A stretch of DNA of 64,000 nt. Origin: Utricularia gibba (lineage: Eukaryota > Streptophyta > Magnoliopsida > Lamiales > Lentibulariaceae). Below, piece by piece: positions 6,200-51,443 of this stretch (its first letter is position 1; each line of letters opens with the position of its first letter). The notes under the pieces are model-generated. The model saw only the letters and a list, made by a program, of their open reading frames with translations, did not search any database and was not told the DNA's origin. The stretch is from NCBI GenBank assembly GCA_002189035.1, contig NEEC01000004.1, positions 2,294,001 through 2,358,000 of the forward strand. Reading direction: 5' to 3'. A program made the position numbers and the translations under genes.

Positions 6200-8368
6200 T
6201 TACATTTCTCCCTCAGCGAGGAGAAAAACAGCAGGCTCAACGTTAGCAGCATAGCCATATTTTGAAGTGCTGTACTTCTTATGCACACCAGTTATTTTCC
6301 CAGTTCCTGCTCTCTGATGGAAAGTTACCATCATCTTCGCACAATCACTACGAGAAGGCATAGATCATTTCTGTCTTTTGTGCCAGGAAATAAGCAGTAG
6401 AAAGTTGGTTGTGGATCACTTACAGGAGCTGGTTCTTTGTGTAATTTGTGTGAGTCTCACATGTAATGCTCCACTGTTTTTGCCCACTTACCGTGCACAG
6501 GCCTGTAAAGATTGCAGCAGCTGCCAGCAGGGACGGTGGGAACTGAAGCATCTCGTACTCAACTAGGCAGAGTTCGATTAAGAAGAACGATAGGAGCTCC
6601 AGCTGCTTGACAAGTTAGCAGTGGCGATGATCTTCCCAACACAGGTAAAAAGAAGCCGGAAGCACTAAAGAAACAAACCTTTTTATCCGACTGCGCAGCT
6701 TTCAGGAAACGCCGCATGAAAACATATGGAGTTGGCAAAGAAAGATTAAACTGCAAGGTGTTGATCATCAATTTCTCCTACAGCGGCGAACGCACACCAA
6801 AGTTAAAGACTTCTGCTGTTTTTCACGTTGCCAATTTACGGAGAGACTACCAACCATTTCAAGAGCCTCTTGTCTGCTGTAAGCTTTGTCTGAGATCAGA
6901 ATAAGGTCCTCCACGATGGGGACGGAAACTTCTTCGTATTTGCAGGCAAGAAGAAGAGCCGTGGCCCCGACTAGTTGCAGTTTCTTCCTTACCATTGGCT
7001 TGACTGCGAGGAACCTATCAATGAGATTGACAGTCAAATACAATGTCTCTTCCATCAGCTCGAACTTATAATGCACCTGCGATGATTAGAACACAAGTAG
7101 GTGATATGACGACATTTTCTTCTGAATAGAAGCATACAACAAAACGGATGAGGAATCTTCACCTCAATAAGCCAGTCAATGAGAATGGCTCTCATACGTT
7201 CATTAATGTCGGGTTGCTTTTCCATATAATTTGGTGGGACACAACTTAGCCTCTGTAACAAAAGACCAGGAACTAAAAAAGAATCTAAATGGAATGCGAC
7301 ATATGGACATCACAGAACATTGTGAAAAAGAGTAGATGCAAACGGGTTTGCTGGGACACTGATGGTTTGAACAAAAGGCTGTCTAGCATATACATGAAAG
7401 AATGTACCACCTCTGCTTTCTTGTAGTATGTGTAAATTTCATCAATGTACTCAGTAACTGCAAATGGATTTTTCTTGTCACTGCTGTCAATGTCCATCAC
7501 TAGCTCCTCCACTTCGTGAGAAATGTCTTCCATTTCAACTTCTACATCCTGCACAAAACTCAAAACATCAAGAATAACCAAGATGGAAAGGGGAAGAAAC
7601 AGAACTTGAGATGAAGGAGAAGTACCATTCTGTATATATCTTCCAGCATAGCTTCTGTATGTTGAACGAAAGATGGCACATCTTCATCTGCCTCCCAGAT
7701 AATGCAGTCTTCAGATTCAAAGGGAATTGGAGCAGCTTGAGGCAAGGGCTCCACTTCCTAAAATAGCAGCATATTGGCAAATTATCATCAGTCCCTATTA
7801 CGTACACCACAAGTGAATGTAACATTATGCAAGAAGAAAGGACAAGTACCTGAGGTGCTTGCTTCTGTTCTATTTCAGCTCTTTTTGCAAAGTTTCTGAA
7901 GAGCCATCACAAGTTTATATTCATGATGTGTGTCATGAGAAAAATGTTTTAAGAATACCATGAAAGTAGAATCAACGAACCTAGTATTTGGACGGTGAAC
8001 AAGGATACCACTCTTCTTGTTACTGGAAGAACAACTCAAAATAGAAAGCCATTTAAGGATAAATATGGTATTGAAAAACTCCTAAATATTTTGGCGATTC
8101 ATACTCTTTGAAACTATCCCTTTTGTACAGAGCACATGGGTAGGAAGGATCCACAATGATGTTCTTATCTATTGCACCCAATGCCCTCCTGTTGTTACCA
8201 AGCCTTGTGGATACTTTTCCATCCCCAGGCCTCATTGCCATCCCTATCAAGAAACATCGAAAAATGCCATCACTGTCCAGCACTTCAGTTAAAAGTGCCT
8301 TGAAAATTTAAATTACCTTGAGAATTTGAACAGTGCATCAGGCCTGGAAAATTTTCCTTAGATGACAT
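6200..8368 (-). CDS. CYCB2: G2/mitotic-specific cyclin B2
   Basis: Regulatory partner of a mitotic cyclin-dependent kinase, driving G2/M entry. Eleven exons on the minus strand: 8368-8317, 8243-8105, 8022-7981, 7895-7850, 7757-7626, 7548-7411, 7252-7163, 7076-6855, 6777-6679, 6605-6424, 6347-6200. Junctions are GT-AG and in phase. The product is 429 aa, normal for plant B2 cyclins. The N-terminus has a destruction box, [10 protein letters not shown] at residues 36-45 (RxxLxxI). The cyclin-N domain has [13 protein letters not shown], the B-type signature MRAILIDWL (203-211), [15 protein letters not shown] and [13 protein letters not shown]. The cyclin-C domain has [18 protein letters not shown] and [14 protein letters not shown], ending [13 protein letters not shown]. 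Exon 1 is short (17 codons) and the start is the first Met. Mitosis-specific promoter sites lie upstream. Subclass B2 rests on overall resemblance. Confidence 0.95.
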
Positions 8369-14300: not shown

Positions 14301-14689
14301 TCAATTTGAACAATGATCCATTAAAAATATCTATTGATTCCAGTTGATGTGTAATTTATTATGCAAACAAAAAAGTATAGTCCACTTTTAACTTGAAAAT
14401 TTCATTAAAATTTTTTCCCATCTGAAGAAAAAAAAACATATGCACAGATAAAAACAAAATTCTTTTTCAGTAGCATTTACAAAAATATAATTTTTCTTAA
14501 TTATGAAAAATTCCTTACCAATTACAAAAAGCATATAAAAAAGAAATAAAAAGTAATTTATTAAAAGTGACAACTCATTTCCCAACTATGCAATAAAAGT
14601 ATTTACAAAAGAAAAAAAAAACATGATCAATCCTAAAAATTACTAAAGAAAATCACTGAAAGTGACACGTCAAATAAACATGATGGACC

Positions 14690-15127
14690 CTAACGCTAGT
14701 GATGTGATTGCATTCATCTTATTTAAAGTATCAAATCTTACAATAAAAATAAGAAAATAAAAATATTTAATATTTTTATTAACATTTCTCCTAACTATGT
14801 ATTGAAAAATTTACCTTTGGTCTAGTTTAATTAGTAGATTTAGGATGCTTTTGAGAAAACTTGGGTTCCATTGGAGAATGTATCTAAACAAAACTTGTAC
14901 ACTATTTTTTAAATCCTGTTTTCACCTCTTTCACTAACATCACACCTTTTTTCCACTTTAGTGTATAGTGCTTCATGTTGTGAGTCCTGAAACATACATT
15001 CACAGTAAAAAAATATCGAAGCTCCACTTCAAGAGACAACTCCTCGCAAATACTCACAAATGTTAATAGAAATAGATTGTGAAATCAAATAAAACAAAGT
15101 AATCTCTAAATATTCTAATATTTTCTC
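14690..15127 (-). repeat. repeat family copy A, 3' segment (left of Harbinger-1)
   Basis: The reverse complement aligns closely with about 39525-39960 of copy B. Shared blocks include TTAGGAGAAATGTTAATAAA and AGTTTTGTTTGGATAC-like sequence, running up to CTAATATTTTCTCTAA at 15112-15130. It encodes the degraded C-terminal half of a plant transposon-domain protein (see 38930-39960). The segment stops exactly at the TAA where Harbinger-1 begins. Confidence 0.75.
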
Positions 15128-16254
15128 TAAGGGCATCTTTAGTGATTTCCGGAAATGTTGACGTGGATTTTCGGAAATCACTATTTTTTTTTCTGAAAAT
15201 CATTAATTTGAGGAAACTAGATGTTGCGGAAATCGGAAGCAGGAAGTTCCGTTTCCTCGCGTAAACAGGACTTTAAAACCTTTAATATATGCCCTAATTT
15301 ACTTCATCCCAATTCGTTCGGCGCTCCATTTTCTTAGCACCTCTTCGTGGTTGTCTTCAATTGACCTCCAATCAATTTGCTGATGTCTTTAATTGACCTC
15401 CAGGTATATTGACTCCCTTTGCTGCGTAATAGAAGTCCATAGCGACTAGAATAGGCTGAACATCATCAATTTGCATAGGTTTATGCACTGAGTCTGATAT
15501 TAATGAGCATGCTGGACAATTATGGCTTTGTATGTGTTGGGTTCGATAAGTTGTTTTTTTCAACAATCAATAATATGATCAGTGACTTACATTTGCTGAG
15601 ATGTAGGTTTCTAGACTCTTAATTGGTGCTTTGCAACATTGCCGTAGGTAACAAACATGTGGATGACAAATATTATAACTTCTAGAATTCACTACCACAT
15701 GCAAAACACCGTTCCCATTTTTTCCTGCGGGGTAGTAACCCCTGTTCTTTTCTTGATTTCTGCTATTTTTTATGATTTTTATTGTTTTCGATTATTTTTG
15801 CTGTTTTATATATATCCGTTGGTTTTACCATTTCTTAAAAAACATGAATGTACCTAGTTAAGTTTTCATTCCATTCACCAAGAAATGTTTTGGTTACTTT
15901 TGACAGATGGCTTACTAGTTGGATCAAGTGTTATTAAGTTTTCATTCCATTCTAAGATAGTATGTAGTTGGATTATTATGTAGTATTTGTTTAACTTTAT
16001 TATTGTTTTTATGTTATACGAATGATTTGTCTTTTAATTATGTTTTGTTTATTTTGGAATTTATGTATTACTTGACTTTATTAATATTTGGACTAAGTTC
16101 GATTTGCTTATATTATTTTATTTTTATAAATATTGGATTTATTTAAATTATACAAATGCAAATAATATTATTAGGTTCAAATGAAAGTTGTAATACAAAT
16201 AATATTATTAGTTGAATATAAAAGTAATAGGTGTAAATTATATTGTTAGATAAC

Positions 16255-16485
16255 ATTAAAATTGGTAGGTAAAATTAAAGTGGTAAATAGAATTTAAAAG
16301 TGGTAGATGAAAATGAAAGTGATAGTTAGAATTAAAAAGTGGTAGATAGAAGTAAAAAATGGTAGGTAAAAATAAAAATGGTAGATACAATTAAAAAATG
16401 GTAGGTGAAAATAAAAGTGGTAGATAGAATTAAAAAATGATAGATAAAAATAAAAGTGGTAGATAGAAAATAAAAGAAGATAGTT
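16255..16485 (+). repeat. degenerate 18-21-bp minisatellite
   Basis: About eleven imperfect tandem copies of a unit like GTGGTAGATAGAATTAAAAA (variants GGTAGGTAAAAATAAAAAT and GGTAGATAGAAAATAAAAG), inside Harbinger-1 just upstream of its transposase. Unit length drifts, so it is an old slippage-prone array. Confidence 0.75.
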
Positions 16486-16537
16486 GAAAATTTTGTCTAT
16501 TTAAGAACCTGGATGTTATTGTAATTCTATTCACATC

Positions 16538-17567
16538 ATGGATTCACCCTTTGGGAGTCACATAGTGAAGTTTTTCATAGAAGATGATGTTGATTATGCT
16601 GCAATTGTGCAATAGAGATTTGATTTCATTCCTCAACGAAGCACATGAGGAGCAACAAGAAACCTCAAGAAAGCGACGACCACGCCAATGTGGGGAGCGC
16701 AACCGTGAATTAGGACATGAAAGGTTGGTAGCTGATTACTTTTGCAATGATGCAACTTACACAAATGAACAATTCCGCGGGAGATTCCGAATGAAAAGAT
16801 CTTTATTTAAAATAATAGTTGAGACTATCCAAAGTCAAGATTCGTTTTTTCAAGAAAAGGTAGATTGCACGGGCCGTTTACGGCTTAGCCCTTTGCAAAA
16901 GTGCACAGCTGCTATATGTATGTTAGCTTATAGTTCTTGCGTTGATAGTGTAGACGAATATGTTAGAATTGGAGAGGCAACAGCTATCCAATGTATTCGT
17001 CATTTTGTTGTTGCTATTCGTACTTGTTTTTCAAAACAATATTTGAGAGCTCCCACCGTTGAAGATTTGGAACGTTTATTTGCTTGGGGGAAATCTCGAG
17101 GCTTTCCAGACATGCTTGGTAGTGTGGATTGTATGCATTGGGAATGGAAAAATTGTCCAATTACATGGCAAGGTCAATTTAAGCATGGTGATCATCGCAA
17201 ACCGTCACTAATGTTAGCAGCGGAAACCTCTACAGATACATGGATTTGACATGATTTTTTCGGAATGCCAGGTGCGAATAATGATCTCAATGTTTTATGG
17301 CATTCTCCATTATTAAATGGGTTGCATAATGGTGTTGCCCCTCGAGTGCAATTCACAGTAAATGGTGCTACTTATGACATGAAATATTATTTGGCTGATG
17401 GCATTTATCCTGATTGGGATATTTTCGTGAAATCTATTACACTTCCACAAGGGCAAAAAGCACGTCTTTTTGCTCAATTCCAGGAGAGTGCTCGAAAAGA
17501 CATAGAACGTACTTTTGGAATATTGCAAAGTCAATTCGGGATACTAACATCTCCTGCAAGAGCTTAG
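16538..17567 (+). pseudogene. Harbinger (HARBI1/ALP1-like) DDE transposase, one frameshift and one nonsense codon
   Basis: Probable start MDSPFGSHIVKFFIEDDVDY at 16538, then a frameshift near 16610 into the long frame. Conserved blocks follow in order: FRGRFRMKRSLFKIIVETIQ, LSPLQKCTAAICMLAYSS, GEATAIQCIRHFVVAIRTCF and FPDMLGSVDCMHWEWKNCP (first catalytic Asp). Next come MPGANNDLNVLWHSPLLNGL (second Asp) and ESARKDIERTFGILQSQFG (catalytic Glu). The only stop in the body is TGA at 17247-17249, where the family has a Trp (W-I-W-H). The domain is otherwise well kept, so inactivation seems recent. Some homology to the usual C-terminus continues past 17567 in another frame. Confidence 0.88.
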
Positions 17568-17984
17568 GATTGAAAAACTTTAGGGGATATCATATATGCA
17601 TGTATTATACTGCATAATATGATTGTTAAAAGTGAAGGACATTCTATTCCTGAAGATACTGCTGTGGATGAATATGATTGATCGACGATGGTCCAACCCC
17701 CGGAAAGTTACAAATATGTTGGAATGAATATAAAAAATTACCTAGGTCGAGTAGAGCATTCCCATGATAGCAATATTCATCGTTGCCTGAAAAAAGATTT
17801 AATCGAGCATGTTTGGGCAAATTTCAATTGATGTATTCTATGATTAGTAGTTGTTCAACTAATTTCGTATTATGTTTTGTATTGAAAATGTTTTAATATT
17901 ATGAAATTTATGTTTTAAATTATAAACAATGCTTTCGGAAATTGATAAAGTGAATAATGAAACTTCATAAAGGAAAGACACGTG

Positions 17985-18540
17985 ACAACATAAATGCTCC
18001 ATGCTCAAGACAAATCCAATTGGACCTACACGAGTGTGGAGTTCATTCTCAATTAACTTATTGGATTCTTTGTCTTAAATCTTATATTATCAAGAATCTA
18101 GTTATCAATTCTTCAAAAGTTTACATCTAAAAACAACCATAAGTATTATATAAGAAATCGAATTACAATATTTCCACAAAGATTCTTCAATTTAGAATAT
18201 AGATCAGCAACCCATAGTGAAAAATAAATCACTTACCTTATTTAATTTTCTTACCAGGGGATAGCAACTAGGGTTTTTTCCACTGACAAAGTGGGGATCA
18301 GGAGTGGGAGACGTGTAATATTCTCTATGGGTCTGCAAGAATTCGATTTTATTGACGAAATCATAGGATAATCGTTATGTGCAATAATTACATTAAATTG
18401 ATAAGTTTTCGGTAATAATTCTTGTTATTTTCGAGTGGGAAGACATAAATGAACTATGTTTCCTATGAATAATGTCCATCGGAGTGCGATTGCTCAACAT
18501 CGAATTACTACGTTTTTAGGAATAGAATACTAAGATCATT
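17985..18540 (-). repeat. repeat family copy A, 5' segment (right of Harbinger-1)
   Basis: The reverse complement aligns along its length with 38950-39500 of copy B. A near-identical block, GGTAAGTGATTTATTTTTCA then C(C/T)ATGGGTTGCTGAT, is at 18205-18241 here and 39255-39292 there. Others are CTAGTTGC...CCCCTGGTAAGA and CCCATAGA(C/G)AAT. The coding potential is ruined by stops. Together with 14690-15127 it is one older repeat, split by Harbinger-1. Confidence 0.75.
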
Positions 18541-19648
18541 ATATCTAGAAACATAAAATAAATAAATAGCATATAGAACATTATTAGAATCAATATTTAT
18601 GTTTTCGTGATTTTTAATGGAAAGAGCAACATCATCCGTATTAAAAGATTTTGAATTATATTTACAAATTAAGTTTTTACACCTCTAGATTTCACTCGAA
18701 TATCCAAAATCAGTATAGTAAGAAACAAATGTGGGATTTCATCAAAGTATTTCAAGTACTTAATTTTCATATTCCGCATTACATTTCCAAAAAAAATCAT
18801 AATCACCTTGATGATAAAAAAAAATAAACGAAATTTTACAAATATATAAAAGACCAAGTTGAGAATTTGAGCAATAACTACAACTCAAAATCTAAATATA
18901 AGAGTAAAATATTTCTAACAAATTCACTAAACTTTTTATTTTTTCAAAAATAGAATAATTCAAAAAATTGTAACCCTGGAAGGATTTACAAAATTCAAAA
19001 GAAAAATATTTTCATAAAAAATTAAAAAATTGTAACATATTATATATAAAATTTCATTTAATTGCATAATCACTTTTAAATTTATGATAACAAATATTTT
19101 CTTCTTGATAAATCTTTTTAAAATCATTTCTTTTATTAGGTGTAGTTCAAAATATCAATAGCATTAATGTAAGTATAGCATTATCCAAAGAAACTGAAAA
19201 ATCCTATGAGAAATTTCATAAAATGATGTCCTTTTTATATGATTTTTACAATGGTAAAGCCATTTTGTGGTGATGACTATTTTGAAAAAACTAAAATTCA
19301 TTTTTATATAAATTAAGAATTATCTATTCAAGAATATGTAATAACAATGTAACTTTTATTGTTGAAACATCTGTAATCATAACAAGTTAAACAAAAATTA
19401 TATTGTATAGATTTAAAAATAAAAATTAAAAAATCATGCATGTTTTTAAAATCTTCAAGTTCAATCTCAAGTTGTTTTTTCAATAAAATTTTTTGTACCT
19501 CGTTTAAGCTTATTTCAACATGTCATCAAAAGAATTTTTTTCAAATAATGAAAAAGTAAGTTCATTAAGTATGAAATAGGGCATCATAATAATTTGAAAT
19601 TTTTTATAATTAAATAAAAAATTAGATAATTCCACACTATTATCTGTT
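18541..19648. other. AT-rich spacer
   Basis: Low-complexity AT-rich sequence; nothing recognised on either strand. Confidence 0.4.
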
Positions 19649-24739: not shown

Positions 24740-24905
24740 GTAGTGTTCCTTAAATCACATCTAACCGGTCTTTATTAAATGTGATATACTCCCACTATGT
24801 TTTTCGAGATGGCATCCCCTTACTAACAAAACGAGAAAATCAGATTTTCTTAGTGGGATAGTGTCCCATTTCATTCATCTCCACCTTGACTGTAGCCAAC
24901 AAGCT

Positions 24906-26060
24906 TTAAATATTTAAAACGTAAATTACAAAAAAAGCATAGTACGAGTATCGATCTCAGGAAGTTGTTTTTCGTAAAAAGTGTTTTGTAAAGAACTTTA
25001 CAAAATGTCACGGTTTTGTAAAAGGGGGTTGGTAAAATGCAGAAATAAAAGTTATAACTTAAGTGATGGGGCTTGACTATGGGAGTCAGTTCCTGGGAAT
25101 GAGATTCCGTCTCCTTCCTTTGTCCATCCTTGCCTCGGTTTTCACTGATTTCTTACGAATAGCTGGTTATAGAAGCAAGGAATAGCGTACTCTCCCTTAC
25201 ACTATGATTGACAAGGAGGCATATGAATAGGCTCTTGTGATTCCCCCTAGGACGATTAGGAAGACAAAAGGATTGACTTCGATTGCCTTCAAAACCGAAT
25301 TGCGCGCGTGTGCCCAACTGTTGCCAATGGCCTGGTAGGTCCGAGGTCACAACCTGTTCACTGTCGCGGTACTTAGGTCACAAACAATCCGGTACTTCCC
25401 TCGAACCAATAGGGTTGGAGTTGGTGCTCTTCACCTTGATCTTCACCAAAATCTACGAGGAGTGGCCTGTTACTCATGGACCTTGACTAGGAGTCGTTAC
25501 AGAAAGATTGCAACAAGATGCGTGGAAGTATGCAAAATCCGAATTGAATTTCAGCGAAGAACTGAGTGTATTGCTCAACACTTGAAAGGAAACTTCATCT
25601 TCTCCCAAAAACTAAAGGGTTTTAGCCACAAAGGGTCATGAAAACATAAACGAAATTGGAAACTAAGTGTTCTTCATCCTTGAGGGGAAGAAGAAGTCAA
25701 AAGTTCTAAGTCTAGAAAGGAAATGACAAAAGTTGAAAAGTTCTCAAACAAGTGTTCCAAGTCGGTTAATATCTCACTCCCCACGTGCATTAACTCCTTT
25801 GAGTCCCTTTCCCATCATTCCTTCTGTCTTGCGTGCGTAACCAGCTTTCCTTTATGTGCAAGTTAGTGCCCAATCATTGCTGCAGACTCTAATATGCCGT
25901 AAGTCAGGAGTCTTGACCAATGTCAGTCTTCCGCCCACAATTGTTCCAAGTCACTTTTGGTGCGAGTCTGACCTCCTATAATACTCATGCAATACTCCAC
26001 GATAGTTTCCTGACATGTCTTGGTCAATTAGTACGAAAAAAGACAGAAAATATATGTAAA
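24906..26060. mobile_element. non-coding retroelement-like repeat
   Basis: A less AT-rich block with no protein homology. It begins near AGTACGAGTATCGATCTCAGG, a phrase typical of the non-coding or LTR part of plant Ty3/gypsy elements, and fades at about 26060. It abuts the truncated 5' side of the copia element. A comparable phrase, GATCGTATCCACAGGG, begins the block at 35650. The assignment is only by resemblance. Confidence 0.35.
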
Positions 26061-36850: not shown

Positions 36851-38675
36851 TACATTACGGAGAAAAACGTAGACTAGTTATACATAAGGATAGAGGAATG
36901 GTAACGATATTGTTCAGTAATTACAAATGAGGGAGGTCATATGCTCGAATAAAATAATCATCTTAATCTTGTATGATACATTTTCCCTTAAAGGGAAGAA
37001 CTCAAAATGATGAAGATTAGATACCCAAAATAGATAATATCATACAAGTTTCTTTTGGCTTCATGGATTGCTAAAGATTTTACATTTGAGGACATACGCA
37101 ATTTAATTGTGTTAAGTGTCATTTTCTATATGTTTTATCATGTTTTCTTAGGTTTTTATTTTGGATAAAATCGACTACCTATGAGTTAATTTAGGTATTT
37201 ATGAATTCTTGCAAAAAAATTCAATTATTATTGTTCTTGTGTTTTTGTATGGTATTTTTCTTTATTTTTTTGTGTGAAATTCCAAGTCAGGTATAAGATC
37301 AAGGGTAGCAACTAAAAAATGGTCAGAAAATGAAGACAAAGATATGATATCCACATAAAAATATGTGATATCTTGGCTAAAAATGTACTAATCCGAATGC
37401 ATTTGAACTATGGAGAATCTAGTCTTCAAATACATATTACTTTCTTAAAAAAATATGGCAATAGTCTAGAGGAAGAGTGGATATTATATATTTATCATAC
37501 CATACTAAAAGAATGGAGAGTATAAAGAGTTTCTATGAATCGTAAAGAGGCAACAACACCACAAACAATTAACCATAGTAATGAGTGAAAAAGGTAAAGT
37601 ATATGGAGGTGCTTTTGTCGGAATAAACTGTTGCAAGGCTAGAGAGTTTTATTGTGCAGTATAGTTACAAGTGATTATGGGAGGTAAATAATTGTCATCC
37701 CTTATTGCATTAATTACAGTATAGTTTAACAAATATTATGTCGAGTCTATACAAATCCAGCTCATTTTGTGTTGAACCATACAAATTAACTAGTTTGTGA
37801 GAATTTCTTTAACAAAGACTTTCAATTATCAAAGTTGGAGGAATTGAGTAACAATTTCTTCTAGTTTCAAGGAACATTCCAAATCTTATCATGATAGTAG
37901 AATTGAGAAGAAGAAATTTCAGCAAGGTAGAAGGTACTTTTATATTGTTTCATGTTCAAGTTTTACCTAGAAAATTTGAAGTCGAATTTGCAAGGCCATT
38001 TACTGTAAAATTTTTGAACAAAAATCATTTGACAAAACTATTTAATAAATAGCCAAATGCCAAGACTCTTATTATAAATTTCAACGTATAAATAGGGATC
38101 AAGACTCCAAATCAAATAAAATTCAGATAATAAAAAAAAATGCATCTAGGTAGTATGAGTAATTAAGGCAACTCATACCTCCACAATTATCTCTCTATTG
38201 TAGGGAGGTTTATATATAATCTTAGAAGAGTTAAAGAAAATATGTCAATTATCTTAGCTTTCTATTTGCTACTAAGGTCATTGGATGAGCCCTCCCTCTC
38301 TGTGCCCTTAGTGTCATTGGAATGTTGAGAATTTCAATACATAGTTGATGACATCTTCGAGGCTTTTAGAGCCTTTTTCCCTTCAAAGACTTTGACCTCC
38401 TTCAACGTCTCTCCCAACTTCTCGTTGATTGTCTTATTCTCCTTTTGTATGGCCACCAAGATATTATTGAATACAACGTATTTGGTGCATATGCAGGGGA
38501 CACCCACCTAAGTCTCTGGCAGATTTGCGATTAGCTTCTTATTGAGGTCTCAAGAACCTCCACTTCATCAAGATCTCCACCCTCTCCATGAAGGTAAGCT
38601 AGATCCCATAGGTCATCATATTGAAGTGCTCCAAAAAGTTTCTTAAGGATTTCCTCTTCATTTGTATTCTAAGAC
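36851..38675. other. AT-rich spacer, possible old coding relic at its end
   Basis: Mostly AT-rich. 38270-38675 is less AT-rich and on the minus strand can be read as a broken coiled-coil stretch (about IQKENKTINEKLGETLKEVK). It is cut by the element that starts at 38684 and seems to resume at 42197. I cannot name the family. Confidence 0.3.
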
Positions 38676-38929
38676 CTCCAACTATAGGTGTCATTGGTTT
38701 GAACTAAAACCGTGGTTCAAACCAGAACCGATGGTTTCGGTTCCAATTAGGTTTCGAGAGATCAATGTCCGTATGGTTCCGGTTTTGGAACCAGAACCGT
38801 ACAGTTTCGGTTCGATTCGACATAATTGGAACCATGGAGCCGAAGGTTCCAACTTGCATTGAATCGTATGGTTCACGGTTCAGAACCCACATTAGCAGAT
38901 CTAGGTGCCTCAAAATTAAACTAATTATT

Positions 38930-39960
38930 AGACTTACATAAGGATTATACTCTAGGTTCATGTCGTTCAACTGAGCGACTCTTCCCACCTAAAAACAACA
39001 ACAATTACTATCGACAATATGCCAAAGTAGAGTAATCATTGCACCAACGATTACCTTATGATTTGGTTAATTAAACCGAATTCTCGCACACCCATAGACA
39101 ATGTTACATATCCCCACTCCTCAAGTTCTCAATGAAGACAACTCTAGTTGCCGCCCCCTGGTAAGATAATTTTCTTACAACTTCCCCCAAACCGAAATCG
39201 ATTGGCCACCCTATAATCCCACCTCCTACTTCAAATATTGTTACAATTATCTAAGGTAAGTGATTTATTTTTCACCATGGGTTGCTGATGTATGTATCGA
39301 ACTACCTTGTGGAATTATTGTAGCCTAATTTTTTTATACAATACTTATGGGTGTTGTAGATGCAAACTTCTGAAAAATTGAGAACTAGATTCTTCATATC
39401 GAATGAATATAAGATTTGGGACAAAGAACCCGATGAGTTGATTGAGAGTGAACTTCCAACTCGTTTGGGTCCAATGGGATTTGCCTTGAGCATGAAGCAT
39501 TTTCGTTTACCATTATCACCATTTTTAGAAAAGATATTAGCATGTTTAAAGATTCCTTTGTCTTGTTTGACTCTAAAGTCTATTTCAAATGTGTTGGACT
39601 TTGTGGGTATTTGCAAGGAATTCTCTCTTGAGGTGGAGTTTCATTATTTCTTTGTTGTGAGTGTATACTTTAGGACTCACGATATGAACCACTATACATA
39701 AAGGGGAAAAAGCGTTAGTGTTGGTGAAAGAGTTGAGAAGAGGATTTGAAAAATGGTAGATAAGTTTTGTTTGGATACGCCCTCCAATAGAACTCAAGTT
39801 TCCTCAAATGCACCCTTATTCTAGCGAAGAAGGCGAAAGGTAAATTTTTTATTGTATAGTTAGGAGAAATGTTAATAAAAATATGAAATATTTTTATTTT
39901 ATATTTTTATTTCTCTATTCTTATTATAGGATTTGATACCTTGTATAAAAGGGATGCACA
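38930..39960 (+). pseudogene. repeat family copy B: plant transposon-domain protein relic
   Basis: The open stretch 39360-39701 includes GPMGFALSMKHFRLPLSPFL then KIPLSCLTLKSISNVLDFVG. It resembles the plant putative-transposon domain (Transposase_28/PF04195-like: FPLHPF...L.P...R...GF). It is preceded by intron-like DNA ending GTTGTAG. Copy A (14690-15127 plus 17985-18540, minus strand) is homologous along the whole segment. Copy B lacks the Harbinger insertion. The domain assignment is by eye and moderate; the two-copy relation is clear. Confidence 0.6.
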
Positions 39961-40274
39961 AGATTTTATACCCATCTTCTCAAGTATGCAAAGGAATTTT
40001 AGTAACATTTTATCACCCTTTGTGGATGCACTGGGGACAAAACGCTATTGGTGTGATGTGTTGAAGAATCTTAGTGCACATAAGAAGAATGAAGATGCGC
40101 CTAGGGATTAGATGACTCAGGATGCTAATGATTTTGAAGGGGATGAGCACACACATGATATTAATGATATGGATGATAGACTTGCATTCATAACAAAGGA
40201 GAATGAAGAGTTTCGCTATAAGTTGGATTGATATGAGAGCCATTTAGCATATACCACACCTTCTTTGAGTACCT

Positions 40275-41115
40275 CTAAGCCACAACTAAAGTTGATTATC
40301 TTGGACATAAATGGTGTGGTCACAAACATTGTATATAGTGCTGAATTGTCAAGGTAACGAATACCTTTAAAAAAAATCATATATGGTCGATCAGGTACCT
40401 TAGCACAACACTTATTTTTATGTGTTATATGCATTAACTATTTGTGAGATATCGTAAATATTTTTTTACCTAATGTATGTAGTTTTTTTATGTCCATATA
40501 CCCATGACTTTATTAGGTGGTACTTGAATAATTTTGATGTAGTCATATGGTCATCCCGTGATGGGTACATGTGTTGCATCATATTTTTTCACCTTTAGAA
40601 TTGTGAAAATATCTTGCAAACGCTTTCTTTTGTAGGGAGCAATTACAAGCAATCACTAAATGGATATTTCAACCTTCATTATTTGATAAACTTATTTTCG
40701 TGTGAGACTGATTGATGACTATGGATATAGGTGTATGTGTTCACAACAATCCTAGCAACACAATCTATATGAAGGAGTCGAGTCATGTATGGGTTGTGAA
40801 CAATAGGTTGAACACAAGATATGACTATTACTATATCCTATTGATTGATGATTCAACTTACAAGTCAATGAAAAATCTGGTAAGCTATTTTTGCTATTCT
40901 CGTTTAGCATATACTTGGTTATATATCAAAACTAATCTTATATTTTTCAAGAAAATAATGCTATTTTTCCAAGCCCCTATTCGCATATCAATTGGGATGA
41001 TGCATTAATAAATGTTAATGGTGAGATGCGAACTTTACTTGAAGGATTACGATTTGATCATGATATTCCAAGCTATGTTAATGATAGTCAAATAGGATAC
41101 CCCCATCCGTGAGGG
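40275..41115 (+). pseudogene. FCP1/NLI-interacting-factor-type phosphatase fragments (captured host gene)
   Basis: Three pieces in the right order and with intron-like gaps. 40275-40354 reads LKLIILDINGVVTNIVYSAE (HAD motif region; this plant subfamily has LD-x-NG). 40510-40575 reads WYLNNFDVVIWSSRDGYM (the V-W-S-S motif). 40712-40880 reads YYYILLIDDSTYKSMKNL (the LLIDDSP-K motif, here with Thr), followed near 41030-41100 by GEMRTLLEGLRFDHDIPSYV. Plant FCP1-like HAD phosphatases dephosphorylate proteins such as the RNA polymerase II tail. Frames between the pieces contain stops. Retained intron-like gaps argue for DNA-level capture, not retroposition. Confidence 0.65.
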
Positions 41116-42196
41116 ACATGTCATATGAGATTATTATGTATGCCTAAGAAATAATTAGAGGCAGCTCCAATATTAGTACTTGTGAACAATTATGTCATAG
41201 TTAGAATACTTTTGTTGTTGACTTTTTTTTATAAAAGATAATTATATCGTTGTTAGGATTTTAATCGTGTGAAATATGTTCCAGTGAATAGTGATCCACG
41301 AGATCAATTCTGAGACACTCATAATAATTTCTAAGGGTGCCTATGATCACTTATGGACACACATAAACTTTTTTAAGTGTGCTTGGGCAGCATGTCGTTT
41401 ATGGTTATGGTTTTCGAATTTCCAGATACTCATATACATTCCTTAGGGTGCTTAGGATCTTCTCTAGACACTCTTAACAGTCCTGGAAACGGTTCCACAA
41501 AATATGTGTGAAATGTGTGATTTAATTTGGTAAATCTAATCTATTTAATCTTTTTTACTTTGGTTTCCAAAATAGATGAAGTTTAGAAAAAGCTTATTAA
41601 ATAAATGATGTTTTGATTTTAAATTGAAAAATACATAATATTTACAAAAGATTATATAAAAGTTATCTATTTAAATGTAAAATAAATATAAAAAATTTTA
41701 TTTGTTTTATATGATTTGTAATTTTGTTGTATTTATTTAAAAAAATTTAATTTTATCATATGTATTTTCAACTGTTGATAATTTTATCATTTTAATCATT
41801 TATTTCATTCATTTAAGTAATCAATATAATTTGTAGGTATATTTTACAAATTAATATAGTATATCATATAATATATCCAGTGAAATATGAAATTTTAACA
41901 TTATTAAATATATCATTTGGTATAAATATTATTACAAACTTCATTCTCAGACACTCATAATGTTTCATATGGGTGCTTGGAAAATGCATTCAAATAGTAA
42001 TTGGCCAGTGCCAGTTATGGTTTGATTCGAGATTATTGATTCTATTTTTTAACTGAAGTCGTCTTTATAGTTTTGATTTCAGTTCTATTCAAGGTTCCAG
42101 TATCCAGTTTCGAATTGAAACCAGAACCGTGGTCCACAGCGAACCGCAGTTTTGAAACCGTACAATTCAGAACCAATCGCAACCCTAGCTCCAACT

Positions 42197-49059: not shown

Positions 49060-49250
49060 ATAAGTAATTTGGTAAGAGTCCAATACACAAATGTGTTGGA
49101 CTCCTACCACATTACTTATTTCGTAGGTGCCATTAATGTGGGATACACACAGGCGTGGTTTATGCATAACCTATGTCCGTGTGTTGGATTTCTACCAAAT
49201 TACTTATTTCATAGGTAGTATTAATACAGGATACACATGGGTAGAGGTGG
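49060..49250. repeat. degenerate tandem duplication inside Harbinger-3
   Basis: Recurring phrases AC(C/A)...ATTACTTATTTC(G/A)TAGGT and TGTGTTGGA(C/T)T at 49083-49145 and 49170-49220, partly inverted around 49050-49130 (ACGAAATAAGTAAT / ATTACTTATTTCGT). Confidence 0.6.
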
Positions 49251-49305
49251 GTTTGGTTCGAACCGGAACTGTGGTTCGTACCGAAACGTTTGTATATATC
49301 TGGTT

Positions 49306-49750
49306 CCAGGCACCCACATGAGAAAAGGTGGGTGCCTGGAATTTGGTTACAGACTCACAAACACCCTCCCGAGGCACCCATATGAGAGAAGTGGGTGTCT
49401 AGAAAACTATCACAAATACTCCTTCCCAAACACCCATATCAGAGAAGTGTGTCCCTGGATATGATCTTACCCACTCTTCCTAGACACTCACACAATGCAT
49501 TATTTTGTAGGTATCGTCCAACTCTCTTTCCCAACACCCTCCCGAGGCACCCACATGAGGAAAGTGGGTGCCTGGAAATGGTCTTACCCACTCTTCCCAG
49601 ACACCCACACAATGCATTATTTTGTAGGTACCGTCTAACTCTCTTTCCCGACACCCTCCCGAGGCACCCACATGAGGGAATTGGGTGCCTGGAAATGGTC
49701 TTACCCACTCTTCCCAAACACCCACACAATGCATTATTTTGAAGGTGCCG
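49306..49750. repeat. 117-bp minisatellite with internal hairpin
   Basis: The unit starting TCTTACCCACTCTTCC recurs at 49465, 49582 and 49699, exactly 117 bp apart, with a more diverged start at 49306-49460. Each unit contains a hairpin, for example AGGCACCCAC (49545-49554) facing GTGGGTGCCT (49564-49573). Because 117 is a multiple of three and the unit lacks stops in several frames, long open frames appear on both strands here (49395-49742 plus; 49439-49729 and 49480-49755 minus). They are repeat artefacts, not genes. Confidence 0.88.
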
Positions 49751-50111: not shown

Positions 50112-51443
50112 CTATGTGCACCACCCTGAAGAGGTTTCAACAGCTGTTATGAACTCACCAGCCCCTTGCTCAACAGATTCAGTAAAATTCTCTGACACTT
50201 CAGCTTCCAACGGATCATATGCCATATTCATTCTTACGAAATTGTGTAATAAAGCACAAGCAAGAATAATGCGACTTTGTGTTTGAACTGGATAGTAGGA
50301 TGCTGACCGAAGAATGGCCCATCGAGTCTTTAAAATTCCCCATGCTCTCTCAATTACATTTCTCGCTGAGGCGTGCCGCATGTTAAACAACTCTTTCGCA
50401 TTTCGAGGTGCTGAATTTCCAGTACCCCATTCTTTTAAATGATAGCGTACATTTCGATATGGAGCTAGGAAGCCATCACAATTGGTGTAGCCATTATCGC
50501 ATAGATAATAGCAACCTGCAATCACAACATGCATTTGTATAGTAAAATGTTTCTGAAAACAGCCTGAAAAAATGGAAATTTATGCATGGAAAAACCTTTA
50601 AAAATCTTACTAACTTCATAACTAACCTCTACGTACTCGTAGACCACCAACTTCCTTCAACAAAGCACTTTTAAGTATACGGATGTCAGCAGCCGATCCT
50701 TCCCAACCAGTAAGCATGTAAATAAAATTCATATTTTGATCACATACACCCAAGACATTGAAGGCTATTGTACCTTTTCGGGTTCGATATTTTGACTTAT
50801 CACACTCAGGCACCCGTGCCTCAATATAGGACCCATCTAAAGCACCTAAACAATTCTACACATATTACAAACATTCAACAATTAATAGTTATTAAGATAA
50901 ACATTGCATAACCAAAAAATGAAATAGTACCTCAAAGAAACAGAACCTTGCTGTGGCACTGGTAGTAGTAACAGGTTCACCCTTAACTAACAGCTTATCA
51001 TGCAGGCATAAAACAGCTGCAAGAACGGCCTTGAAGTGACAGCTAATTGTCCAAGTCAATCTTTTGAAGGATGACTTTTGAACTCGCATCTTCTTATGAT
51101 GGGCTAAAATACCTAAGAAAATACAGACTTTCTCACTGATAGTTACATACTTCGAGTCACAAAGCCCTGCATAATCACGAAGTAGACAACACAATCGTCC
51201 AAATACATCTTGATTCATCCTCAATTCCTCCAAAGCTGTGTTGTTCATGTTGCTAACTAATTCATGGAGATGTTCAATTTGTTTTGGCATTTTCAATGTA
51301 TAAGAGTATCGGCATTGCTGTCTTGAACCATGAGAACGTAGTCGGAGCAGTACAATAAGCATAATAATATGAGCAATTTCGAAATTCCTTTGCAACAAAT
51401 ATGCCAATAACAATAACTGAGCATTCTCATCAATTGATTCCAT
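50112..51443 (-). CDS. Harbinger-3 transposase (HARBI1/ALP1-like), intact
   Basis: Three exons on the minus strand: 51443-50931, 50855-50627, 50515-50112. GT-AG introns and matching phases give 381 aa without a stop. The N-terminus has a helix-turn-helix-like region (MNQDVFGRLCCLLRDYAGL, FLGILAHHKKMRVQKSSF). The DDE nuclease has Asp178 in LGALDGSYIEARVP, Asp228 in MLTGWEGSAADIRIL, and Glu303 in ASARNVIERAWGILKTRW. It also has the family's YYLCDNGYTNCDGFLAPYR and LACALLHNFVRMNM. It cuts and pastes the element at TWA targets in the nucleus. Domesticated relatives (ALP1, HARBI1) exist, but intact TIRs and TSD around it mark this as a transposon gene. Whether it is expressed cannot be seen. Confidence 0.9.

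Follow-up and report, generated by a model that had tools for sequence, protein, structure and literature searches.

A decayed hAT element in Utricularia gibba, the two-gene transposon family it derives from, and a probable accessory gene of the FCP1/NIF type

Host genes captured by DNA transposons are usually viewed as dead passengers. The locus described here raises the question of whether this view applies to it: a hAT-type element of ~3.5 kb contains an FCP1/NLI-type gene and no transposase. We studied it within the window, which is the whole stretch of 64,000 nucleotides presented above (C413:2294001-2358000), and within the 100-Mb, 516-contig assembly from which the window comes. The answer that we hold to be very probable is that this element is a decayed copy, with an internal deletion, from hAT1, a hAT family with two genes. 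The second gene of the family (gene 2) would be a selected accessory gene, present also in another hAT family (hAT2) and in two PIF/Harbinger families (HarbA and HarbB).

Borders of the window element and the hAT1 family

The alignment of family copies bounds the element at window 38683-42187. A preliminary description had placed it at 38676-42196, bounded by an exact 8-bp duplication. The element itself is real, but its ends are displaced. The exact repeat CTCCAACT is present at 38676-38683 and 42189-42196, and we replaced it as the border. The ends defined by the family shift the TSD by one base, to CCTCCAAC/GCTCCAAC, with a match of 7/8. The copies of hAT1 have the ends TAGAGGTG...CACCTCTA, that is, TAGAGGTG...CACC(A/T)CTA. 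At both ends, TAGAGGTG(GG/CG)TTCGGTTC constitutes a short hAT-type TIR. The terminal features are the following.

38675..38682, no strand: left TSD CCTCCAAC, 7/8 against the right TSD with the ends taken from the family TIR
38683..38700, + strand: 5' TIR TATAGGTGTCATTGGTTT (family TAGAGGTGGGTTCGGTTC / TAGAGGTGCGATTGGTTC)
38701..38885, + strand: 5' subterminal zone, dense in GGTTC/GAACC
38862..38887, no strand: deletion junction; window 38714-38887 resembles 14-193 of the full-length relative L034, and window 38862 onward resembles L034 from 4031 onward
42001..42169, + strand: 3' subterminal zone with GGTTC/GAACC motifs
42170..42187, - strand: 3' TIR (reverse complement TAGGGTTGCGATTGGTTC)
42188..42195, no strand: right TSD GCTCCAAC

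Other copies with the same ends were expected, and they exist. The family TIR TAGAGGTGGGTTCGGTTC, with one mismatch at most, has 80 matches in the 100 Mb, and its reversed control has 0. Likewise, the window element has matches in 95 stretches of the genome, mostly at 66-81% identity apart from the self-match. The subterminal density of GGTTC/GAACC that had been noticed is also confirmed by comparison with shuffled sequence. There are 12 motifs in the 5' 208 bp (38683-38890; 0.37 expected) and 4 in the 3' 187 bp (0.29 expected), with no excess in the middle of the element or in its flanks. Searching for an empty site, we found no paralogue of the joined flanks in the 100-Mb assembly.

The element was described as hAT-type and non-autonomous, and its TIRs, its TSD and the absence of a transposase agree with this. 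The absence is true of the window copy; the full-length relatives, however, carry the gene. At least three hAT1 relatives with both ends and 8-bp TSDs present a BED/hAT transposase followed by gene 2 on the same strand. They are L035 (6.4 kb, exact TSD AGTCTTCC), L037+L038 (13.8 kb with nested inserts, exact TSD GTCTCAGA) and L034 (8.0 kb, TSD GGAAAAAC/GGGAAAAC). The 8-bp duplication of the hAT superfamily is thus exact in the first two. It matches in 7/8 positions in L034, in the window copy and in the short deleted copy L002 (GTTGGCAT/GTTGACAT). Transposases of the relatives contain the hAT domain PF05699 (8.2e-23), zf-BED PF02892 (1.1e-5) and the hAT RNase-H domain PF14372 (2.7e-7).

Aligned with L034, the window copy lacks ~3.84 kb, including the whole transposase gene. 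The junction in L002 differs from that of the window copy. The window element is a decayed, internal-deletion derivative of hAT1 that has lost its transposase. With its ends and a dead gene 2, it would be mobile only if a transposase were supplied in trans.

The two-gene order is the prevailing one across the genome. At 18 gene-2 loci, the hAT1 transposase is on the same strand and 1.3-5.0 kb upstream of gene 2, and each other arrangement occurs at 5-7. About half of the transposase pieces at 55% identity or more lack a gene 2 in the 15 kb downstream of them. Gene 2 may be dispensable in hAT1, or often lost.

Other traces of hAT1 were observed in the window. A second, broken element occupies 14370-19644 on the - strand, and its ends were not found there. 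It consists of a transposase relic (19644-18438), the start of gene 2 (18248-17986), an interruption of ~2.9 kb and an N-terminal relic of gene 2 (15130-14370). A short non-autonomous copy probably lies at 49242-49737, where the hAT1 TIR TAGAGGTGGGTTTGGTTC precedes sequence that resembles the family and contains GTGGGTGCCTGGAAA repeats. Outside the window, the stretch between the two hAT1 genes repeatedly contains hairpin units such as CCAGACACCCACA-CGAGGCAA-TGTGGGTGTCTGG (position 7248 of the joined L037+L038, and other copies).

Gene 2 and its occurrence in several transposon families

Gene 2 is a complete gene of five exons that joins a PF04195 ('Transposase_28') domain to an FCP1/NLI (NIF) domain. 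The preliminary description had read this region as ordered pieces of an FCP1/NLI-type gene next to a relic of a plant transposon domain. An FCP1/NLI gene is indeed inside the element, but whole and not in pieces. The relic is PF04195-like (E 7e-4, which for this decayed copy is under the Pfam cut-off) and forms the N-terminal part of gene 2. In the window copy, the exons are distributed as follows.

39360..39840, + strand: exon 1, with a likely ATG at 39360 and the PF04195 part; in-frame stop and frameshift near 39702-39710
39930..40394, + strand: exon 2, with the linker and HAD motif I LIILDINGVV (family LIILDVNGVL)
40483..40564, + strand: exon 3, FLCPYTHDFIRW...WSSRDG
40636..40879, + strand: exon 4, with the phosphatase-like core to LLIDDS..KSMKN; stop codons present
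40951..41155, + strand: exon 5, with the C terminus; acceptor CAA where the family has CAG

As had been expected, the phosphatase exons are confined to the element. Exon 5 ends near 41155, and none lies past the element end. Three of the four introns read directly as GT-AG, and intron 3 has the donor GTACGT after a one-base shift of the boundary. Single copies of gene 2 present from 0 to 16 in-frame stops, with 7 in the window copy. The majority frame of 30 hAT1 copies is open over 493 codons. Its protein matches NIF PF03031 at 2.2e-14 (53.9 bits; the cut-off is 21.8) and PF04195 at 7.7e-9.

In HAD phosphatases, the catalytic motif I is DxDx(T/V). The transposon and host versions have DVNG at this place, where the second aspartate is replaced by asparagine; the window copy and the locus L063 show DIN. 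Because of this motif, it would be unsafe to credit the protein with normal phosphatase activity. The motif suggests a weak or altered catalysis, or the binding of phosphopeptides. The nearest solved structure of the core is UBLCP1, a weak match (3shq, E 5e-6), and no solved structural relative was found for the PF04195 part.

A search with the core gave 136 distinct gene-2 pieces once fragments were tallied, and 94 of them are at 29-54% identity. Among these 94 distant pieces, PF04195 occurs 0.5-3.5 kb upstream in 45 and downstream in none. By family, the 136 pieces correspond to hAT1 (42), HarbA (19), HarbB (10) and hAT2 (6), and the 59 left unassigned include host genes. Most copies that can be assigned are transposon genes, and this explains the apparent huge expansion of FCP1-like genes in this genome.

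HarbA (L041) is a PIF/Harbinger family with more than 30 copies. It carries a DDE_Tnp_4 transposase (PF13359, 1.2e-13), gene 2 and, on the opposite strand, a Myb/SANT-like gene (Myb_DNA-bind_3 PF12776, 3.8e-6). Its TIR is GGGCGCGTTTGGTTACTGGG, and its TSDs of 3 bp, TAA (L041), TAA and TAG in three copies, are those of PIF/Harbinger. HarbB (L042) is a second PIF/Harbinger family with gene 2. A second hAT family, hAT2 (L040), has gene 2 in the opposite orientation, convergent with the transposase. HarbB and hAT2 were assigned from their transposase ORFs, from the recurrence of gene-2 sequence in the same position in further copies, and from the single end located for each; a search of a further 2-3 kb did not reveal their 3' ends. 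All versions of gene 2 include the PF04195 part, 47-56% identical between families with a well-preserved hAT1 copy as reference. They also have intron positions in common.

Could gene 2 belong to another mobile element, one that entered the hAT and Harbinger lineages by separate ancestral insertions? PF04195 is annotated as 'putative gypsy type transposon' and has ~150 matches in the genome. Moreover, gene 2 can point the same way as the transposase or the opposite way, and L063 has it with no transposase within ~3 kb. These facts would suit such an origin. Against it, an unsystematic look around gene 2 inside the elements revealed no second TIR/TSD pair. Gene 2 also has a fixed place in each family, and it shares the descent and the selection of that family. 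We consider this origin unlikely, and we retain gene 2 as an accessory gene of the transposons that carry it.

Several observations accompany these families. The locus L063:1691-4625 has the full architecture of gene 2; it may be a stray copy or belong to a further transposon family. Two gene-2 matches with identical scores, C304:866475-867743 and C304:970548-971816, lie ~100 kb apart in opposite orientation, which suggests a recent inverted duplication. The hAT2 element has its own short repeated unit in the 3' part (L040:4246-4749). Within the window, a relic at 50206-50794 (- strand) resembles the transposase end of a Harbinger family that carries gene 2. Finally, a repeat of ~940 bp is present at window 24898-25819 and at L042:1101-2044, where it interrupts the Harbinger element. 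These two copies are 86% alike, and the genome has more than 25 copies at 88-91%.

Host relatives of gene 2 and selection during transposon spread

Three FCP1-like host genes (L054, L055 and L056) are situated away from transposases and have no PF04195 part. Their HAD core presents LDVNGLL as motif I, RP..DF...WSSR and LLLDD. The introns before RP, after WSSR and after NP are at positions common to these genes and the gene 2 of the transposons. The preliminary description took the intron-like gaps as a sign of capture at the DNA level. They are real introns, and their coincidence with the host paralogues points to acquisition as DNA. The core identity between the sampled host genes and the better-kept transposon copies is 31-43%.

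In the tree, the host genes form a separate clade (support 100). The gene 2 of hAT2 groups with HarbB (85) and not with hAT1. As far as these sequences tell, then, the relationships of gene 2 do not follow the transposon superfamily. The deep branches among the transposon versions are weak (support 50-63), so a single origin with transfer is not separable from repeated acquisition. Gene 2 would have passed between superfamilies, or each would have acquired it separately.

We compared variants private to one copy with those shared by at least 4 copies, using a majority-rule reference and wrong-frame controls. The neutral expectation for the ratio of nonsynonymous to synonymous variants (n/s) is 2.5-3.5. 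In the gene 2 of hAT1, private variants had an n/s of 3.60 and 41 nonsense changes. In contrast, the shared variants had an n/s of 1.24 (P = 8e-13), and stops were few among them. Both parts of the gene show the effect, PF04195 (P = 0.001) and the phosphatase part (P = 7e-7). The hAT1 transposase shows a similar change, from 3.39 (private) to 1.00 (shared). In HarbA, the values for gene 2 go from 2.15 to 0.86 (P = 0.004). The terminal branch of the window copy measures 0.116 substitutions per site.

Private variants are near-neutral and shared variants constrained; therefore, gene 2 was selected while hAT1 spread, and the inserted copies then decayed. This purifying selection was about as strong as that on the transposase. 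Two gene-2 copies on different contigs, L012 (C451) and L013 (C41), are nearly identical, which probably reflects a contig duplication or a haplotype contig. One of them was left out of the test.

The preliminary description had interpreted the element as a Pack-type capture by this copy. According to this reading, a non-autonomous element took up fragments of a host phosphatase as functionless passengers. Pack-hATs are known in maize (PMC8903248), and the window copy, with its hAT ends, no transposase and a gene broken by 7 in-frame stops, looks like one. The resemblance of gene 2 and its introns to host FCP1-like genes adds to this impression. Nevertheless, a Pack-hAT cargo should be absent from autonomous elements, and gene 2 occupies the same place in full-length elements with a transposase. 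It is complete, and its shared variants are under purifying selection. Likewise, the core identity to the sampled host genes fits an old acquisition and not a recent transduplicate. The reading was abandoned for these reasons, and we leave it very little probability: gene 2 is the regular second gene of an autonomous family.

The selection signal could itself be artefactual, produced by biased mutation or by the majority-rule reference. Transposons in plants carry methylation and are prone to C-to-T mutation, and some of the shared variants are recurrent. However, transversions alone agree with the whole set, with nonsense changes in 0/53 shared and 31/444 private variants. Both wrong reading frames are flat between private and shared variants. 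The signal is repeated in the transposase and in the independent HarbA family. An artefact is, consequently, quite improbable as the source of the selection that we attribute to gene 2.

It is hardly credible that ordinary duplication amplified a host gene family and that transposons came to lie nearby by chance: host FCP1-like genes do exist away from transposases, but they are without the PF04195 part, while the DNA similarity of the carried copies spans TIR/TSD-bounded units end to end and stops there, at a constant, same-strand spacing to the transposase.

Possible role of gene 2 and comparison with known systems

In the history that we propose, a full-length hAT1 would carry its BED/hAT transposase and the five-exon PF04195-FCP1/NIF gene in the same orientation. 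Purifying selection would have kept gene 2 as the family spread, and each inserted copy would decay on its own. We infer that the gene-2 protein helps the transposon. FCP1-type proteins act on RNA polymerase II. Because an FCP1-like core is paired here with a transposon-associated domain, a nuclear role in transcription or silencing would be the most likely one. Transposon anti-silencing genes (PMC5735166) provide a further analogy for this role. A more specific version is conceivable, although we lean against it. The fused gene may have passed between hAT and PIF/Harbinger as a working mobile accessory gene, for example a transcription or anti-silencing factor that targets RNA polymerase II or complexes involved in silencing; it might then be a pseudo-phosphatase that binds phosphopeptides.

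Under the accessory-gene reading, one captured gene would be an old and functional component of several transposon families that are unrelated, and in two of them the evidence of selection is direct. This opens a question that can be tested: which host process (transcription, silencing or control of the transposase) is worth hijacking repeatedly. We found no relevant paper on this gene (FCP1, NLI interacting factor, Transposase_28) in hAT or Harbinger elements in the open-licence literature, with Repbase outside the scope of the search, and a prior description is possible.

Several known systems resemble this one in part. Elements of the Pack-TYPE, including Pack-hAT and Pack-PIF (PMC8903248), also carry host-like coding sequence with introns, and the window copy is similar to them in having no transposase. 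Unlike their cargo, gene 2 is complete, old, kept by selection and present in full-length members too. In grapevine, Pifvine-3 (PIF) and Hatvine-6 (hAT) carry host exons and introns that are sometimes common to several copies (PMC2528002). Their cargo is variable and mostly made of gene fragments, whereas here the same two-domain gene recurs across families.

Accessory genes related to silencing offer a second comparison. VANC of the VANDAL elements are anti-silencing genes of transposons (PMC5735166). In the partnership of PMD with PP7-type phosphatases, a transposon-derived plant domain works with, or is fused to, a phosphatase in TE silencing (PMC7156037). Gene 2 could be like the first as an accessory silencing gene and like the second in its combination of domains, although the likeness is conjectural. 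PP7 belongs to the PPP-type phosphatases, and PMD is a different Pfam family. This partnership offers no more than a suggestive parallel.

The ULP gene offers the closest precedent. These SUMO-protease-like genes ride in plant MULE (KAONASHI) and CACTA transposons (Benjak 2008, PMC2528002; review PMC13317346). They lie downstream of the transposase, in either orientation, in unrelated MULE and CACTA families of high copy number (PMC2528002). Gene 2 is likewise a host-like enzyme gene downstream of a transposase, in either orientation, in more than one superfamily and in distant families with a high copy number. As would be expected of an accessory gene of the ULP/KAONASHI kind, the carried gene was under purifying selection during amplification, in hAT1 and HarbA. 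It differs in its FCP1/NIF-type enzyme, in its superfamilies (hAT and PIF/Harbinger) and in the PF04195 part joined to it in all the versions seen. Taken together, gene 2 and the ULP genes suggest a pool of accessory genes common to plant DNA transposons of different superfamilies.
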